Source: Desulfobulbaceae bacterium (GTDB lineage Bacteria; Desulfobacterota; Desulfobulbia; Desulfobulbales; Desulfocapsaceae). From it: 64,000 bases of DNA. The stretch is taken from positions 1 through 64,000 of the forward strand of contig QKIH01000107.1 in assembly GCA_003249645.1 (NCBI GenBank). The letters are read 5' to 3'. The first letter of the stretch is position 1. Every line of letters begins with the position of its first letter. Both the position numbers and the translations under genes were made by a program. A model generated the notes under the pieces. The model did no database searches. It saw nothing but the letters and a program-made list of their open reading frames with translations, and was not told where the DNA came from. Positions 1 to 49,859 of this stretch are shown here, piece by piece.

Positions 1-70
1 CAGGCCGGTTAATAATCTCTGCATTATAAATTGATCTCCTTTCTTTGGTCGGAAATTTGATCAATTTATG

Positions 71-104
71 AGGCATACCAAAACGTTTTGGTATGCCTTT
101 TTTT
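71..104 (+). terminator. Intrinsic terminator, perfect 14-bp stem
   Basis: Positions 71-98 form a perfect 28-base palindrome (AGGCATACCAAAAC and its complement) followed by a run of T at 98-104. This is a rho-independent terminator for a plus-strand gene that ends left of the window. The complementary strand has no T-run after the stem, so it probably works in one direction only. Confidence 0.85.
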
Positions 105-107
105 ATG

Positions 108-562
108 CTAAGAATTTTTTATCCCCTTTCTTTGAGGGAGAGCCGTAATATCAAATCGTAAGGCTAAATGATTATTGTTGGTCTTGTAGCTTAAGACCTC
201 CTTCCTGTTTTGGCACTTATTGCATTTTACACGAGGTTTTTCGCAATAAGCTGGATTCCACTCATTGTTGCAAACCGGTGAATGGAGTTGTTGTTTTTTG
301 ATTCCCAACGTTTCGGATAAACATCTTCTCTTCCACGAAATAGTTGTCTGAACAGTGAGATTTTCTCTTCAGTAGATGACTGAGAATGAATTTTTGAAGA
401 GGGTGTAATCGGTTGGTGAACTTTTACGGTGTGCTTGATGATTGACGAGGAAACAATAGGTGTAGCAGTTTGTTTAAGCCGTGCATTCTCCTTACGCAGT
501 TCTTCTATTTCTGCTAAAGCTTCTTGAAGATGTTTTTTCAGGCTTTCTAAATCATCTGGCAT
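108..562 (-). pseudogene. Frameshifted remnant of a TOTE-type primase/helicase protein (N-terminal part)
   Basis: Two overlapping minus-strand frames together match the N-terminus of proteins annotated as TOTE conflict system archaeo-eukaryotic primase (identified from memory of the family). The first frame (562 down to about 290) gives a coiled coil rich in E, K and L, then EEKISLFRQLFRGREDVYPK and RWESK, a hallmark block. The second frame (308 to 108) continues with HSPVCNNEW and CEKPRVKCNKCQNR, the Cys-rich block that normally follows at once. The frames switch in the A-rich tract near 290-300, so a small indel broke the gene. After CQNR the sequence no longer resembles the family and stops, so the primase core and helicase are gone. 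A dead relic of a defence/conflict gene. Confidence 0.7.
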
Positions 563-602
563 TTAACCATCCGACAAGTACGGGGGGCAGAGGTTTGGAA
601 CT

Positions 603-893
603 CTAAGATTGTGGAACGAAGTTTATTTCCAGCTTATATCCGACTGCCCGTGCGTAATCCTCAATCGTGGATAGTTTGGGTGATATCTTGGAATTAACAT
701 TTTCAAGCCGGGAGACGTTGCTCTTTTTTGTGTGCAGAAGTTCGGCGAGTTCCTCTTGAGTGAATCCGGCATCTTTACGAATTTTAATAAGCTGTTTTCT
801 GAGTTCGTAAGCTGAAGACAATCGGTCGTATTCACTTTTAACTTCTGGGTTTTGTAATGCTTTCTTTTTGAAATCTTTTAATGATGTTCTCAT
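603..893 (-). CDS. higA: HigA-type antitoxin (XRE helix-turn-helix)
   Basis: 96 residues. The N-terminal 35 residues are charged and helical. Residues about 38-90 are an XRE helix-turn-helix (FTQEELAELLHTKKSNVSRLEN), followed by a short beta tail (GYKLEINFVP) typical of HigA antitoxins. Its ATG overlaps the stop codon of the upstream toxin by 4 bases, so the pair is translationally coupled in the toxin-first order usual for higBA. It would neutralise the toxin and repress the operon, probably through the palindrome at 1222-1239. It lies in island DNA next to a tRNA attachment scar, a common setting for such modules. Confidence 0.85.
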   Translation of the reverse strand: MRTSLKDFKKKALQNPEVKSEYDRLSSAYELRKQLIKIRKDAGFTQEELAELLHTKKSNVSRLENVNSKISPKLSTIEDYARAVGYKLEINFVPQS

Positions 894-1213
894 GATTTCA
901 CCTCTTTTAGTCTTTTTCTGGCTGTTGCTAATTCTTTTTTGGGTGTTTTTTGAGATTTTTTGATGAATGAGTGGAGGATAATTATTTCCTTGCCTTTAAC
1001 AGTGCAGAAGAAAGATCTGCCAATCCCTTCTGTTCCTTTAGCCCTGATCTCAAACAGCCCTTCACCCATTGCTTTGGTATAAGGTAAACCTAGTGCTGGA
1101 CCGAATTCCTCTATCATTTCTGCGATGTGAAGGAAGTTTGCTAAAATCCCAGGTGGAAATGATAGCGTCGCTTGCTCGACCTTGTCGCTGTAAAAAGTTA
1201 TATTCCAGTTCAT
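890..1213 (-). CDS. higB: HigB/Gp49-family toxin (RelE/ParE superfamily)
   Basis: 107 residues, a normal length for phage Gp49-like HigB toxins. Family features include GLPYTKAMGEGLFEIRAKG, then FFCTVKGKEIIILHSFIKKSQKTPKKELATARKR near the C-terminus, where basic residues and the conserved H-F-KK-KTP block form the RNA-binding, mRNA-cleaving face in this family. First gene of the pair; its stop overlaps the higA start. The start is the ATG at 1213, 9 bases downstream of a perfect palindrome that probably carries the autoregulatory operator. The family cleaves mRNA at the ribosome; activity here is inferred. Confidence 0.85.
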   Translation of the reverse strand: MNWNITFYSDKVEQATLSFPPGILANFLHIAEMIEEFGPALGLPYTKAMGEGLFEIRAKGTEGIGRSFFCTVKGKEIIILHSFIKKSQKTPKKELATARKRLKEVKS

Positions 1214-1221
1214 GATTAAAG

Positions 1222-1239
1222 GTTATCATAAATGATAAC
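1222..1239. promoter_or_regulatory. Palindromic operator upstream of higBA
   Basis: GTTATCAT-AA-ATGATAAC is a perfect 8-bp inverted repeat with a 2-base spacer, ending 9 bases upstream of the higB ATG. A TATGAT hexamer lies inside the repeat on the minus strand. Position and symmetry fit a binding site for dimeric HigA that represses its own promoter. Confidence 0.65.
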
Positions 1240-1426
1240 AATGTCAATGGCTATTGCGCCTTGATTTTGATAAGATTTTTAGACGATTGTTAGACGTTTT
1301 AATCGAAATAGATCCATATTAGACGAAATAAGTAGGGGGGAAAAACGAAATTGCCGTTTTAGGTAACTCGTTAATTTCTTTTAATAACAGATAGTTATGA
1401 TTGTGTCTGAAAACAGGGGTAGACGC

Positions 1427-1473
1427 CTTGGGAGCAGGAAGTCGAGAGTTCGAATCCCTCCGCCCCGACCACT
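1427..1473 (+). other. 3' half of a tRNA-Pro(UGG) gene, attachment-site scar
   Basis: The segment reads from the anticodon loop (TTGGGA, anticodon TGG, then the 3' anticodon stem GCAGG) through the T-loop TTCGAAT to an acceptor strand CGCCCCG-A-CCA. The 5' half, which should start CGGGGCG with the D-arm, is absent, so this is not a working tRNA. Such 3' fragments are left where an integrative element used a tRNA 3' end as its attachment site. The tRNA's own terminator still follows at 1483-1518, which suggests that the element lies to the left, with the intact gene at its far end outside this window. One T-stem mismatch is present. Confidence 0.75.
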
Positions 1474-1482
1474 TATAAGTAA

Positions 1483-1518
1483 AAAGCCAAACAGTTACAT
1501 GATGTTTGGCTTTTTTGT
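1483..1518 (+). terminator. Intrinsic terminator after the tRNA-Pro fragment
   Basis: Arms at 1483-1495 (AAAAAGCCAAACA) and 1505-1517 pair perfectly around a 9-base loop and end in a T-run. It is most simply the original terminator of the tRNA-Pro gene. Confidence 0.8.
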
Positions 1519-1902
1519 TTGTCATCTCTGATCCGCCCATCTTGACAACGTATTTCAGTCATCTTACCGTCCGAATATACCTCTCACGTCTTACCAGCTA
1601 TTTGTTGGCTGAGATATTTTCAAAGCTGCAACCCACCATGTTCAAGACTTTTGAGGTATTTCAAAAAAAGGAGACATGAGGTCAGATCTGAAAACTGACA
1701 TCTTGGAAATGATCAACGGCGAGTGATTGAGCTATGCCTTTTTTGTTGTTTCCCCGGCCGTGTTTCTTTTTAGGATAGAGATCATAAGTTGTTCACTCCC
1801 GCTGACAATTCATTCCTGTAACACCAAAGACACACTACTTTTTAGACAACCAGTACAATACCGGGGAAAAGTCCTGGGATCGTCATGGATTATGGAGGTC
1901 CT
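1519..1902. other. Intergenic stretch with one short leader-like ORF
   Basis: No full gene is visible. A 16-codon ORF at 1676-1726 (MRSDLKTDILEMINGE) has an excellent Shine-Dalgarno (AAGGAG, 1668-1673). It could be the truncated start of a lost gene or a leader peptide. The rest should hold the promoter of the flavin oxidase gene, but I see no convincing -35/-10 pair. Confidence 0.3.
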
Positions 1903-3282
1903 ATGAGTAATTATTTGGAAGATTTGAAAGATAAAGTGTCAGGGGTTGTTGTCACATCTGCTGACGAAGGGTATGACACTGCCCGCACCAGTTGGAATCT
2001 TTTTATCGACCAGCGACCAGATGTTGTTGTAGTAGCTGAGAGTGAGGCTGACGTAGCTGCGGCCATATCATATGCAAATGATGCTGCAGTACCGGTTACA
2101 GTGCAGGCAACGGGACATGGGCAGCCGAAAACATGTGCGGGCGGTGTTCTCATCAATACCTCAAAGCTCAATTCTGTTAAAATCGACCCTGTTTCCAAAA
2201 CAGCAGTAATTGGAGCCGGTGTCCGTTGGAAAGAAGTTATCGAGGCTGCTTATCCGTATGGTCTTGCCCCTATTTCCGGTTCATCACCTAACGTTGGTGT
2301 GGTTGGATACACAATAGGCGGTGGGTACGGGATCACATCACGAAAGCATGGTTTGGCGATTGATAACGTTCGTGATTTCCGCATAGTACTCCCCAATGGT
2401 CAGGTAACCCTTGCATCATCTGATGAGAATCCTGATCTTTTCTTTGCAGTATTAGGAGGTGGCGGATCCTATGGCGTCGTTACCGAGATGACCATCTACC
2501 TCCATGGGCATTCAGAGGTTTTCGGAGGATCTGTTATGTTTGATGCATCTCGAGCATCAGAGATCTATATTGCATATGCAGAATGGACGTCGGGACTTCC
2601 CGATGAAGTTAGCTCCGCTATCCATATTATGAATTTCCCGCCTGCACCCTTTATTCCTGAATTTCTCCGGGGACGATCTATGGTAATTGTTATTGCCTGT
2701 GTATGCGGACAGATGGAGCATGCTGAAGAATGGCTGAAGCCGATGCGCTTAATGGAGGGTGCAGAATTAGATTCTTTTCATAAAATGCCTTATACAGAGT
2801 CAGGTGCTATCTTTCAAGATCCTGTTGATCCGCTTCCGGCAAATGGTCGGGGCGTATTGCTTCATGATTTCACTGCAGAGACAGCTGCAGCGTTTTTAGA
2901 TGCCATCGGCCCGATACCAGCTTCCCCTAATCTGATGATTCAATTGCGTCATTTGGGGGGTGCGATCACTGGCAATAGTGACCCTCGCGTATGTATCATG
3001 AGAAACCGCAAGGCCAAATACCTTGCATATCTGCTTGGCGTGCCCATGCCGGGTAATCCTCCTGAATCGATGGCTGCGCATGCCGAAAATGTATTCAAAA
3101 GAATAGAGCCATGGGTGTTGTCGCGCGGCCCTCTCAACTGGCTTGGTGAGGGTGCCGTGGAACCATCTTCAATCCGATCTGTCTTTTCGGAAGAAGAATA
3201 CACACGTATTAAAACGGTAAAGGAGTCGATAGATCCGCTCAATCGATTCTCCAATGCTGGTTTGGGTATTATTGATAAGTAA
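1903..3282 (+). CDS. FAD-linked oxidase, berberine bridge enzyme-like
   Basis: About 459 residues, a normal length for the family. The N-terminal PCMH-type FAD domain (about 25-205) shows TGHGQ, where the His is the usual 8-alpha-histidyl FAD site, then GSSPNVGVVGYTIGGGYG, the loop that in bicovalent members holds a Cys. Here it reads S-S, so flavin attachment is probably mono-covalent. The C-terminal BBE motif reads DPLNRFSNAGLG. I chose the ATG at 1903 because GGAGG at 1894-1898 sits just before it; an upstream in-frame ATG at 1885 lacks a site. Members oxidise sugars, alcohols or alkaloids with O2; the substrate here is unknown. It sits between two tRNA-Pro-like scars and may be island cargo. 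Confidence 0.85.
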   Translation: MSNYLEDLKDKVSGVVVTSADEGYDTARTSWNLFIDQRPDVVVVAESEADVAAAISYANDAAVPVTVQATGHGQPKTCAGGVLINTSKLNSVKIDPVSKTAVIGAGVRWKEVIEAAYPYGLAPISGSSPNVGVVGYTIGGGYGITSRKHGLAIDNVRDFRIVLPNGQVTLASSDENPDLFFAVLGGGGSYGVVTEMTIYLHGHSEVFGGSVMFDASRASEIYIAYAEWTSGLPDEVSSAIHIMNFPPAPFIPEFLRGRSMVIVIACVCGQMEHAEEWLKPMRLMEGAELDSFHKMPYTESGAIFQDPVDPLPANGRGVLLHDFTAETAAAFLDAIGPIPASPNLMIQLRHLGGAITGNSDPRVCIMRNRKAKYLAYLLGVPMPGNPPESMAAHAENVFKRIEPWVLSRGPLNWLGEGAVEPSSIRSVFSEEEYTRIKTVKESIDPLNRFSNAGLGIIDK

Positions 3283-3375
3283 GATGTTTATCCGCTGCAT
3301 TTGGATTTGCGATAAAAGATTGGACTCTCAATTGCGCCAATATTCTATGATGTGGTGGCCATATTATAGAATATG

Positions 3376-3419
3376 TTGGGGAACAGAAAGTTGAGGGTTC
3401 GAACTTTTTGCTCTGACCA
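3376..3419 (+). other. Decayed tRNA-Pro-like 3' end, second attachment scar
   Basis: TTGGGG, a GAGGG-TTCGAAC T-arm and a terminal GCTCTGACCA line up with the 1427-1473 tRNA-Pro 3' half, but with many C-to-T and G-to-A-type changes and one missing base. Like that copy it is followed at once by an intrinsic terminator. I read it as an older attR-like duplicate. Chance resemblance cannot be excluded because the stem is mostly G-T pairs. Confidence 0.5.
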
Positions 3420-3427
3420 GGAAAAAT

Positions 3428-3461
3428 AAAAGGGTTTTCGGTTTTTCCGAAAACCCTTTTT
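3428..3461. terminator. Bidirectional intrinsic terminator
   Basis: Arms 3428-3441 (AAAAGGGTTTTCGG) and 3447-3461 pair perfectly around a T5 loop. T-rich tails lie on both sides, so it can stop transcription from the flavin oxidase (plus) and from the converging TauE-like gene (minus). Confidence 0.85.
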
Positions 3462-3498
3462 GGCGTTTTGGGGGATGCTGCTTCAAAGAAGATGGATA

Positions 3499-4302
3499 TC
3501 AGCTGAAAAAGCCCCACATCATTTTAGTGGCAACAACGTAGAGGAAAAAAGCAAAGATCCGTTTCAGCTTGTCAACAGGAAGTGCATGTGCAAGTCGGGC
3601 TCCTAAAGGCGCAGTCAGCATACTCAACAAAACAATAAAACCAAGAGCCGGCAGATAGACATATCCAAGGCTGTAGGGAGGTAAACCTTCGGCGTGGAGG
3701 TTATTGATAATGTAGCCGAATGCTCCTGCCACAGCGATGGGAAATCCGATTGCCGCAGATGTTCCTATGGCACGATGTGCGGCCACGTTACACCAAAGCA
3801 TAAAAGGGACTGATAACGAGCCGCCTCCAATACCGACAAGGCTTGAGACGATACCTATGATACCTCCCATGCTGAACATGCCGGCTGTGCCGGGTATTTG
3901 TCTGGAGGCTTTTGGCTTTTTATTGATAATCATCTGGGTGGCAACACTGTAAAGAAAGATGCAGAAAAACGCTTTAAGGAAGCCTGTTGATAACCGGGAA
4001 GCAACAATGGTTCCGAGAAAGGTGCCGAGGAGAATGCCGGGAATAATTCTTTTCACAATGTCCCAATCGACTGCACCCCGCTTATGGTGAGACATAAAAC
4101 TGGAAACTGAAGTGAACATTATGCTGGCAAGAGAGGTCCCCAATGCAATATGCATTATCACTTCCGGATTTATTCCCTGTCTTGCCAGACAGAAGATGAG
4201 CATGGGGACTATCACCAGACCGCCTCCAACCCCGAGCAATCCAGCCAAAATGCCGGCAATTAAACCAACGGCCATATACATTAGTGCTGTTTCAATAAAC
4301 AT
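3499..4302 (-). CDS. TauE/SafE-family membrane exporter
   Basis: 267 residues with about eight membrane helices in two related halves. Each half carries the family repeat: GLLGVGGGLVIVPML near residues 22-36 and SLVGIGGGSLSVPFML near 153-168. The family moves sulfite, sulfonates such as sulfoacetate, or related anions across the inner membrane. The start ATG has AAAGGAAAG upstream. No sulfonate catabolic gene lies next to it, so the substrate is open. It is transcribed alone and ends at the bidirectional terminator. Confidence 0.85.
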   Translation of the reverse strand: MFIETALMYMAVGLIAGILAGLLGVGGGLVIVPMLIFCLARQGINPEVIMHIALGTSLASIMFTSVSSFMSHHKRGAVDWDIVKRIIPGILLGTFLGTIVASRLSTGFLKAFFCIFLYSVATQMIINKKPKASRQIPGTAGMFSMGGIIGIVSSLVGIGGGSLSVPFMLWCNVAAHRAIGTSAAIGFPIAVAGAFGYIINNLHAEGLPPYSLGYVYLPALGFIVLLSMLTAPLGARLAHALPVDKLKRIFAFFLYVVATKMMWGFFS

Positions 4303-4341: not shown

Positions 4342-4680
4342 TTAAACAAAGTGGGCGATATATCTGGATACAGATGCATCGCCATCCGTATGATGATTTT
4401 TCGCTGCAACGAGACTAAAGGTGTGTACAGTTCTTGCAACTTTCATCAGATCATAAGAAAGTGTTAGTTTGATATCATGTACAGAGAAAACCAAATCGTC
4501 AATAAGATGTTGAGGAAAATGATAGTCCAGGTACATTGGCAGATTGCGAAAAAAGTGAGCGTGAAATTTATTGCTTGACCATCTGCATTAGCCATATCAG
4601 GATGGGCCGAATCAATCCATGAAGCCTGCTTCTTTTACCCACTCTACGGTGAGATCCAGCGCCTTTCTAGATACGATGCT
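4342..4680 (-). pseudogene. Broken minus-strand coding remnants, family not recognised
   Basis: One open frame (4536 to 4342, extendable upstream through NKFHAHFFRNLP) has protein-like composition with blocks such as MYLDYHFPQHLIDDL and TLSYDLMKVARTVHTF. A separate fragment in another frame (about 4680 to 4612) ends KALDLTVEWVKEAGFMD and looks like the C-terminus of a different protein. Neither is a whole domain and no usable ribosome-binding site is evident. I interpret them as leftovers of genes lost beside the island scars. I do not recognise the families. Confidence 0.35.
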
Positions 4681-4690
4681 CGAACATTAG

Positions 4691-5059
4691 TTGAATTTTT
4701 TCCTTGGCAATGATGTGCGAAGGACAGAACGAAAGCGTGGCATTCAGACATTGGGCGAGCACACCTACCAGCTGAATAAGCTGGGGAAGTATGCTCGCTG
4801 CGCCCTGTATCGGAGCAAAGTTTGTTCTAGTCGCCTTGTTTTGACTATCTCAAGTCCGCCCAGGAGACCGCGGCAGTGTACCTCTGCAACGAGTGGATGT
4901 TCACCAAGTCTATTAACGCCTTCTGAAAAAGTAGGCGCAAGTTACCGGATTCTGCTGATCATATCTATTTCCACGAAGATATTCAGCGTTTCAATGGCGA
5001 CAGCGGCGGCTATGGTGTCTGGTTCCTCTCGCGGGATCAGTTTTGGTATATTTAGTTAG
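4691..5059 (+). pseudogene. Degraded plus-strand coding remnant with frame change and internal stop
   Basis: The frame from 4691 begins plausibly (RKRGIQTLGEHTYQLNKLGK and YARCALYRSK). Near 4820-4840 the better protein-like reading moves to the frame of 4846: DYLKSAQETAAVYLCNEW, then an in-frame TGA after INAF, then DSADHIYFHEDIQRFNGD and GGYGVWFLSRDQFWYI before TAG. A frameshift plus a stop suggests a decayed gene. The TGA could in theory be read through, but no structure supports it. Family not recognised. Confidence 0.4.
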
Positions 5060-5082
5060 AATTGAAGATAGAGATTTCGATA

Positions 5083-5589
5083 TTAGTCAGGTGCTGCTGC
5101 AAGCAGGTAAGAACAATTGGCTGATCCACTAACATTTGTACCCGTAGTAACTGCATTAATATGCAATTGAGTAAGCCAGCTAAATGTAAGATCAACATAT
5201 GCTGAATAGGTACCGTCCGATTGTGTTGTCGTATCAACCGCTACTGAAGGGCCGGCAGAATTTTCCGGGGTTACAACTATATGGATTGACACTCCACCTG
5301 TTGGGGGAGAAACGTAACCAGTCACTTGAAAGCGCATGCTTGCGTTTGCCAAATCACCTATATCAATAAATTCAGTCCAGGTAATAGAACATGGATCATG
5401 CATGCTCGTTCCACTCGTTGCAGCATGTGCTGGCAGAATGACAGACTCCACAAGCGGGACGCCCCACTTGGCAGGCAGCAGATTATACGCAGCAAGGGTT
5501 GTAACTCCACCAACGATATTCTTTATAATTTTACGACGTCCGGCATTTTCAGCAGCGGCATCATTTAGTTTTTCACTGTCAACAGTCAT
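5083..5589 (-). CDS. Tat-type exported protein, probably Ig-like fold
   Basis: 168 residues. The N-terminus has a twin-arginine motif (GRRKIIKN, about residues 18-25), a modest hydrophobic stretch, then VPLVESVILPAHA followed by ATS, a likely cleavage site. This W-x-x-P-V-x-x-S-V-x-LPAHA pattern recurs in a class of small bacterial exported proteins. The mature part is rich in T, S, V and G with alternating beta patterns (SIHIVVTPENSAGPSVAV) and two Cys, suggesting a single immunoglobulin-like or beta-sandwich domain. GGAGAG-like Shine-Dalgarno precedes the ATG. Function unknown. Confidence 0.65.
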   Translation of the reverse strand: MTVDSEKLNDAAAENAGRRKIIKNIVGGVTTLAAYNLLPAKWGVPLVESVILPAHAATSGTSMHDPCSITWTEFIDIGDLANASMRFQVTGYVSPPTGGVSIHIVVTPENSAGPSVAVDTTTQSDGTYSAYVDLTFSWLTQLHINAVTTGTNVSGSANCSYLLAAAPD

Positions 5590-49711: not shown

Positions 49712-49751
49712 AATCCTGAAGTGCATTACAGATGGTGCGCAAAAATTTGTG

Positions 49752-49833
49752 ACAGTGTTAGGGGTGCCTCTTGCACAGAGGCTGAGAAATACCCTTGAAC
49801 TTGAACTGGTTCATACCAGCGGAAGGAAACACG
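49752..49833 (+). ncRNA. TPP riboswitch (THI element)
   Basis: The conserved pyrimidine-sensor helix is present: GGGGTGCC at 49761, an AGAGG arm, then GGCTGAGAAATACCC with the invariant CTGAGA. The pyrophosphate-sensor part follows (TGAACTGGTTCATACCAGCGGAAGG). It senses thiamine pyrophosphate. A terminator hairpin starts 27 bases downstream, so regulation is most likely by transcription termination. It controls thiE and the NRAMP-like transporter gene. Confidence 0.92.
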
Positions 49834-49859
49834 GACACGATTGTATATTTTATTTATAC

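Follow-up and report, generated by a model that had tools for sequence, protein, structure and literature searches.

What placed two pieces of a tRNA-Pro gene, each followed by a terminator, on either side of a flavin oxidase gene is the question raised by this locus. The window, i.e., the whole stretch of 64,000 nucleotides that was analysed, comprises bases 1-64000 of contig C85 of genome G000, an assembly of 182 contigs that is 87% complete. We consider it highly probable that one tRNA-Pro(UGG) gene took up small integrative cassettes in tandem and that the left 3.5 kb of the window are the remnant of this array. The two tRNA pieces are referred to below as scar 1 and scar 2, and the coordinates of the features are collected in Table 1.

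Table 1. Features at the left end of the window, in order along the sequence
Feature	Position	Strand	Basis
Insertion sequence (IS) end	5-144		89% identical to G015 L102 3783-3919
Truncated, frameshifted 5' part of TOTE AEP primase-helicase gene	123-562	-	PF22548 in both frames
Left-end remnant of the TOTE/higBA cassette	145-206		74% identical to G165 just past the tRNA-Pro terminator
HigA-like antitoxin (XRE/HTH_3)	603-893	-	PF01381, E 4e-9; about 90% to G165 homologue over the reading frame
HigB-like toxin (Gp49)	890-1213	-	PF05973, E 8e-26; 93% identical to G165 homologue
Conserved right end of the element family	1279-1424	+	77-80% identical to sequence before displaced halves
Scar 1, displaced 3' part of tRNA-Pro(UGG), anticodon loop to CCA	1425-1471	+	Sequence match to intact genes
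Terminator after scar 1	1481-1515	+	Stem of 12, z -3.0
Flavin oxidase (VAO/PCMH type; mitomycin radical oxidase/EncM-like)	1885-3282	+	PF01565; PDB 9r43, E 2e-80
Scar 2, decayed 3' part of tRNA-Pro	about 3376-3419	+	Alignment with scar 1; aligned part 3379-3419
Bidirectional terminator after scar 2	3428-3461		Stem of 14, z -3.1 (3428-3460)
TauE/SafE-family protein, first right-flank gene	3499-4302	-	PF01925, E 3e-59; 78% identical protein in G030

Scar 1 starts one base 5' of the anticodon loop and ends with the CCA at 1469-1471, and upstream of the loop the window departs from the tRNA immediately. In a comparison with 58 genomes, 57 of which gave a match at E up to 0.1, it is 98% identical over 47-48 nt to sequences in G041, G054 and G027, which ARAGORN identifies as the intact tRNA-Pro(tgg) genes at L069, L070 and L071; 46 of 47 positions agree with the intact tRNA-Pro(UGG) of three relatives. 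The 3' half of tRNA-Pro(UGG) that the initial annotation had put at 1427-1473 is thus confirmed, with its position shifted to 1425-1471. ARAGORN finds 0 tRNAs in the window, so scar 1 is a fragment only, and the Rfam tRNA family misses it even when E values up to 10 are allowed. Within the window, scar 1 alone gives an ungapped match of at least 27/47 to the tRNA part. The terminator behind it is of the type found after intact tRNA-Pro in G032, G081 and other genomes, and each scar indeed has a terminator of its own, as had been proposed. Read by eye, scar 1 and the intact genes at L069, L070 and L071 have an A-C mismatch in the T stem in common.

The sequence to the left of scar 1 has its counterpart in G165, a complete single-contig genome from the same family as that of the window. 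Window positions 204-1515 align with the tRNA-Pro(UGG) locus of G165 at 80% identity over 1,346 bp, and the aligned span takes in the truncated TOTE primase gene, higBA, the conserved end of about 150 bp, scar 1 and its terminator. Downstream of its intact tRNA-Asn/tRNA-Pro pair, G165 has displaced halves at 3.5 and 7.0 kb, and there are two tandem cassettes of about 3.5 kb, both ending in the conserved end and a displaced tRNA-Pro 3' half; one more half, decayed and with its terminator, lies about 33 kb farther on. The first cassette encodes an 811-aa TOTE AEP primase-helicase (PF22548, E 2e-102; ResIII) together with HigBA and keeps both attachment ends without an integrase, while the second encodes an AAT-type acyltransferase, a TetR/CecR regulator and a 184-aa Xer-like catalytic-domain fragment. 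Of the two primase pieces in the window, one matches residues 1-94 of the 811-aa protein with 66% identity and the other residues 96-150 with 60%. Because of both alignments (204-1515 and 145-206), the left part of the window corresponds to the first G165 cassette minus about 2.1 kb of the primase gene, which the window cassette has lost, with an IS now at its left edge; the window copy retains its right end in addition to 62 bp of the left one. The colinearity shows that scar 1 is the right boundary of the TOTE-primase/higBA cassette. Comparison of the locus in relatives hence yields a colinear tandem array with the intact tRNA-Pro at its near end, and the higBA/primase element that the initial annotation had placed on the left is substantiated by it, the primase being a truncated TOTE AEP primase gene. 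HigB is also 84% identical to one in G022, where the higBA pair adjoins an intact tRNA-Pro. For the four left-end proteins that were submitted to it, PADLOC found related domains but no clear defence system, and a literature search for TOTE with primase returned nothing.

The contig starts inside an IS copy, and the contig break at the window start is attributed to the IS end found there. A second copy of this end, 99% identical, lies in contig C101 of the same genome, and at L102 of G015 the IS end is adjoined by an ISL3-type transposase, with ORFs 2626-3033 and 3040-3552 matching DDE_Tnp_ISL3. The intact tRNA-Pro(UGG) would lie to the left of the contig start, beyond the IS. In the fragmentary G000 assembly 25 tRNAs were found, and ARAGORN, applied to 20 of the 25 tRNA loci (some of which overlap and carry more than one tRNA), named neither an intact tRNA-Pro(UGG) nor a tRNA-Asn, the sole proline tRNA named having the anticodon CGG. 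Among the loci scanned in relatives, 18 of 29 contain tRNA-Asn and tRNA-Pro(UGG) within one locus. Far to the right, the window also carries a TPP riboswitch (49750-49844, plus strand, 68 bits).

We propose that a tyrosine recombinase would join the attachment site of an element, which would carry a copy of the tRNA 3' half, with the anticodon loop of the tRNA-Pro gene in the chromosome. The element's copy would restore the tRNA and the former 3' half would be shifted to the far end, and repeated events would leave one displaced half each, the oldest farthest from the tRNA. The marks expected of a tRNA island are found to a different extent: a displaced 3' fragment at the far end is provided by scar 1 and more weakly by scar 2; an intact tRNA in the same orientation at the near end is present in the colinear G165 array and was not found in the fragmentary G000 assembly; an integrase inside is absent from this part of the window and from the first G165 cassette, and present in same-site elements elsewhere.

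Displaced halves that start at the same loop position and are without the tRNA 5' half occur in 15 other genomes, namely G004, G027, G015, G014, G054, G005, G021, G165 (two), G113, G118, G081, G104, G169, G019 and G042. The displaced and intact tRNA-Pro copies of G004 agree equally with the query (44/47 each), and they are separated by an 8-kb element that carries a primase, a D5-like helicase and a complete phage-type integrase (405 aa, PF00589), the last adjoining the displaced copy. Complete integrases also adjoin displaced halves in G054 and G014. Contig C3 of G015 (L167:4930-6186) has a decayed tRNA-Pro 3' half and a terminator downstream of a gene for a 358-aa Xer-like recombinase, and ARAGORN calls no tRNA at this locus despite the decayed half. 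Pieces of tRNA genes can form by other routes as well, and the window has no integrase gene, which would suit duplication and decay of a tRNA gene in place of site-specific insertion. Such an origin is nevertheless hard to believe, since every displaced copy begins at the anticodon loop, the conserved end of about 150 bp precedes 10 of them, complete integrases adjoin other copies, and unrelated cassettes lie between the copies in G165 and G004. The initial suggestion of repeated insertion at a single tRNA-Pro locus is instead supported by the colinear tandem array of G165 and by the displaced halves in at least 15 other genomes.

The conserved end before scar 1 opens with TTAGACG repeats at 1279, 1290 and 1319 and on its far side runs into the tRNA half; its counterparts precede displaced halves in G165 (twice), G113 and G027. 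The similarity does not track kinship, because G113 belongs to another family of the same order. Most likely, the conserved end would be a recombinase arm region. From 12 aligned copies we built R1, a sequence-only model of 158 positions, which has 34 hits in 17 of 257 genomes of the order; with strict filters, the window's own genome was the only one matched among 395 genomes across the phylum, with none outside the order. The window, which belongs to the training set, scores 125 bits (E 3e-38). Ten of the hits then enter a tRNA-Pro 3' half, five extend to the core, in the expected position, but lack the rest of the tRNA, and the remainder are shorter, decayed or cut by a contig end. The scores are no independent test because most strong hits are in the training set, while the running of these hits into tRNA-Pro is independent. 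The five copies that reach the core without the tRNA half (L165, L166, L167, L197 and L163; core CTTGGGAG/CTTGAGAG) are unexplained by the array model and possibly represent other insertion targets.

Beyond its tRNA part, the conserved end was found neither in phage or plasmid records nor, with two exact patterns, in viral contigs. A second copy in the window's own genome (G000:C115:7135-7202, L160; 95% identity across 66 bp) is cut by the end of a 7.2-kb contig and follows a gene that resembles a hybrid-cluster protein in an ORF reading; it is probably another array member. At L165, L166 and L168 (two in G017, one in G081) a similar GC-rich insert, CCCGGAGTCT...CGCTTAC, sits at or near one place in the conserved end and is perhaps a dispersed repeat. 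An integron-like cassette array was considered and rejected: it requires a recombination site with a conserved single-strand fold, and 10 aligned ends folded with RNA parameters gave 0 conserved pairs.

Scar 2 is far more decayed than scar 1, from which it differs by one one-base gap and 10 aligned mismatches, all of them transitions, compared with 1 mismatch of 47 in scar 1. It fits an older event because of this stronger decay and its greater distance from the tRNA, and would then be an older boundary. One could instead regard scar 1 as the sole insertion boundary, 3376-3419 as a chance resemblance beside the TauE terminator and the oxidase as ordinary chromosomal sequence. The plain scores leave some room for this, with 34 for scar 2 versus 32 for the best background place among 12,788 window segments (scar 1 aside), but none of 5,000 dinucleotide shuffles of scar 2's own region reached its score under either scoring. 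A transition-tolerant scoring, picked only after the mismatches were seen to be transitions, gave 56 for scar 2 versus 34 for the next place elsewhere among 9,812 segments. No decayed copy of the conserved end was found before scar 2, where nothing rose above noise, and Rfam returned chance matches only and no tRNA over the scar region. The terminator is predicted on the minus strand too, where it would also serve the TauE gene and could be that gene's own; however, the tRNA part and terminator together (3379-3461) match the intact tRNA-Pro and terminator of G017 with 75% identity over 83 bp (E 8e-7). Matches to 3379-3461 occur in 13 of 257 genomes; apart from the window, G017 is the clear one that includes the tRNA part, and most of the others cover the terminator only. 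The equal GC of the oxidase and the right flank (0.475 vs 0.463, no difference) would agree with ordinary chromosomal sequence, while the tandem layout has parallels in G165. Taken together, we find a chance origin of scar 2 improbable, and the strongly decayed alignment partner of scar 1 reported initially at 3376-3419 stands.

The oxidase ORF between the two scars likely starts at 1903, behind GGAGG. Its nearest solved structure is the mitomycin radical oxidase 9r43, followed by EncM and 6-hydroxy-D-nicotine oxidase, and its scores with the best NCBIfam models fall far short of their cut-offs. The same oxidase is absent from the relatives (58 genomes), in which the best protein is about 30% identical; a named-genome scan (close relatives only) gave matches in Arthrobacter and Actinoplanes at 35-37%. 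The tRNA-Pro arrays read contain no counterpart of it, and none lies between two scars in relatives. Judged from its position, the inter-scar stretch would most simply be an older cassette and the oxidase its cargo. A comparison of the right-flank genes with the neighbourhood of tRNA-Pro in relatives gave no convincing matches. Between the TauE gene and the ORF at 5083-5589, positions 4600-5060 hold no recognisable intact gene; a 122-aa ORF there has no Pfam match, and the stretch looks like gene remnants.

The TOTE/higBA cassette was probably moved in trans by the recombinase of a related element, because even its G165 version lacks an integrase gene. It is possible, though less probable, that each scar is instead the end of a once autonomous island whose integrase was deleted: the second G165 cassette keeps the 184-aa fragment, related fragments lie near tRNA-Pro in G032, G084 and G157, and the window's primase gene has itself been cut. 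No full-length recombinase was found of the subfamily closest to the G165 fragment, for which the hits with at least 54% identity are all in open frames of 71-206 aa (G165, G153, G084, G032, G157 and G028), several of them close to tRNA-Pro. The first G165 cassette, in contrast, has an intact primase-helicase, an intact higBA, both ends and no room for an integrase, and the TOTE/higBA unit recurs in the window's genus, which speaks for a non-autonomous cassette. We tentatively suggest, as a rather doubtful extension, that integrase-free cassettes with a shared end of about 150 bp may move within one order via trans-acting recombinases and dock serially at tRNA-Pro(UGG), in which case TOTE primase-helicase/higBA would be a minimal self-keeping cassette and the tRNA gene an integron-like platform without an integron.

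The locus thus shows one tRNA gene gathering short, apparently non-autonomous cassettes in tandem. Should the integrase-free unit prove truly mobile, it would represent a compact hitch-hiking element with its own primase-helicase and toxin-antitoxin pair. Finders demanding an integrase inside each island would overlook such units, and the searchable end in model R1, along with the complete reference array of G165, could help to find the recombinase that moves them. This element family looks little studied, and the available portions of the literature on Desulfobacterales islands and tRNA-Pro tandem islands hold no evident description of this array.

Several known systems resemble the array in part. 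Tycheposons are small cargo elements at tRNA genes with their own tyrosine recombinase and, compared by description only, are alike in being small cargo elements at such genes. Cis-mobilizable elements (CIMEs) are stretches of integrase-less DNA between attachment sites that are stacked with relatives; the first G165 cassette, known here from sequence alone, is likewise stacked and integrase-less with both attachment ends, and differs in that one such unit is found again at the same tRNA in a second genus. CIMEs and accretion are named in a report on the ssrA-specific islands of Dehalococcoides (PMC3146451), where the islands are described as following a single RNA gene in tandem; a 3'-end repeat bounds each of them, with a conserved motif just upstream, and 15 islands without an integration module are discussed as cis-mobilizable. 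The tandem arrangement, the 3'-end repeats, the conserved upstream motif and the integrase-less members are all shared with our array. The ssrA islands, however, use a serine recombinase and a 20-bp repeat at their target, the T loop of tmRNA (PMC3146451), whereas here the target is the anticodon loop of tRNA-Pro, the repeat has 45-47 nt, the conserved end is about 150 bp long and the nearby recombinases are tyrosine only. The tRNA islands collected by Islander also combine an intact tRNA with a displaced 3' fragment in the same orientation, and an anticodon-centred crossover is a recorded subsite (PMC4383910), all of which applies to the G165 array too; Islander requires an integrase per island (PMC4383910), so the TOTE/higBA cassette of G165 would be discarded. 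Tandem, partly integrase-less tRNA islands are a known kind; less usual is that two genera share, at one and the same tRNA, a short TOTE/higBA cassette that has a long conserved end and no integrase.
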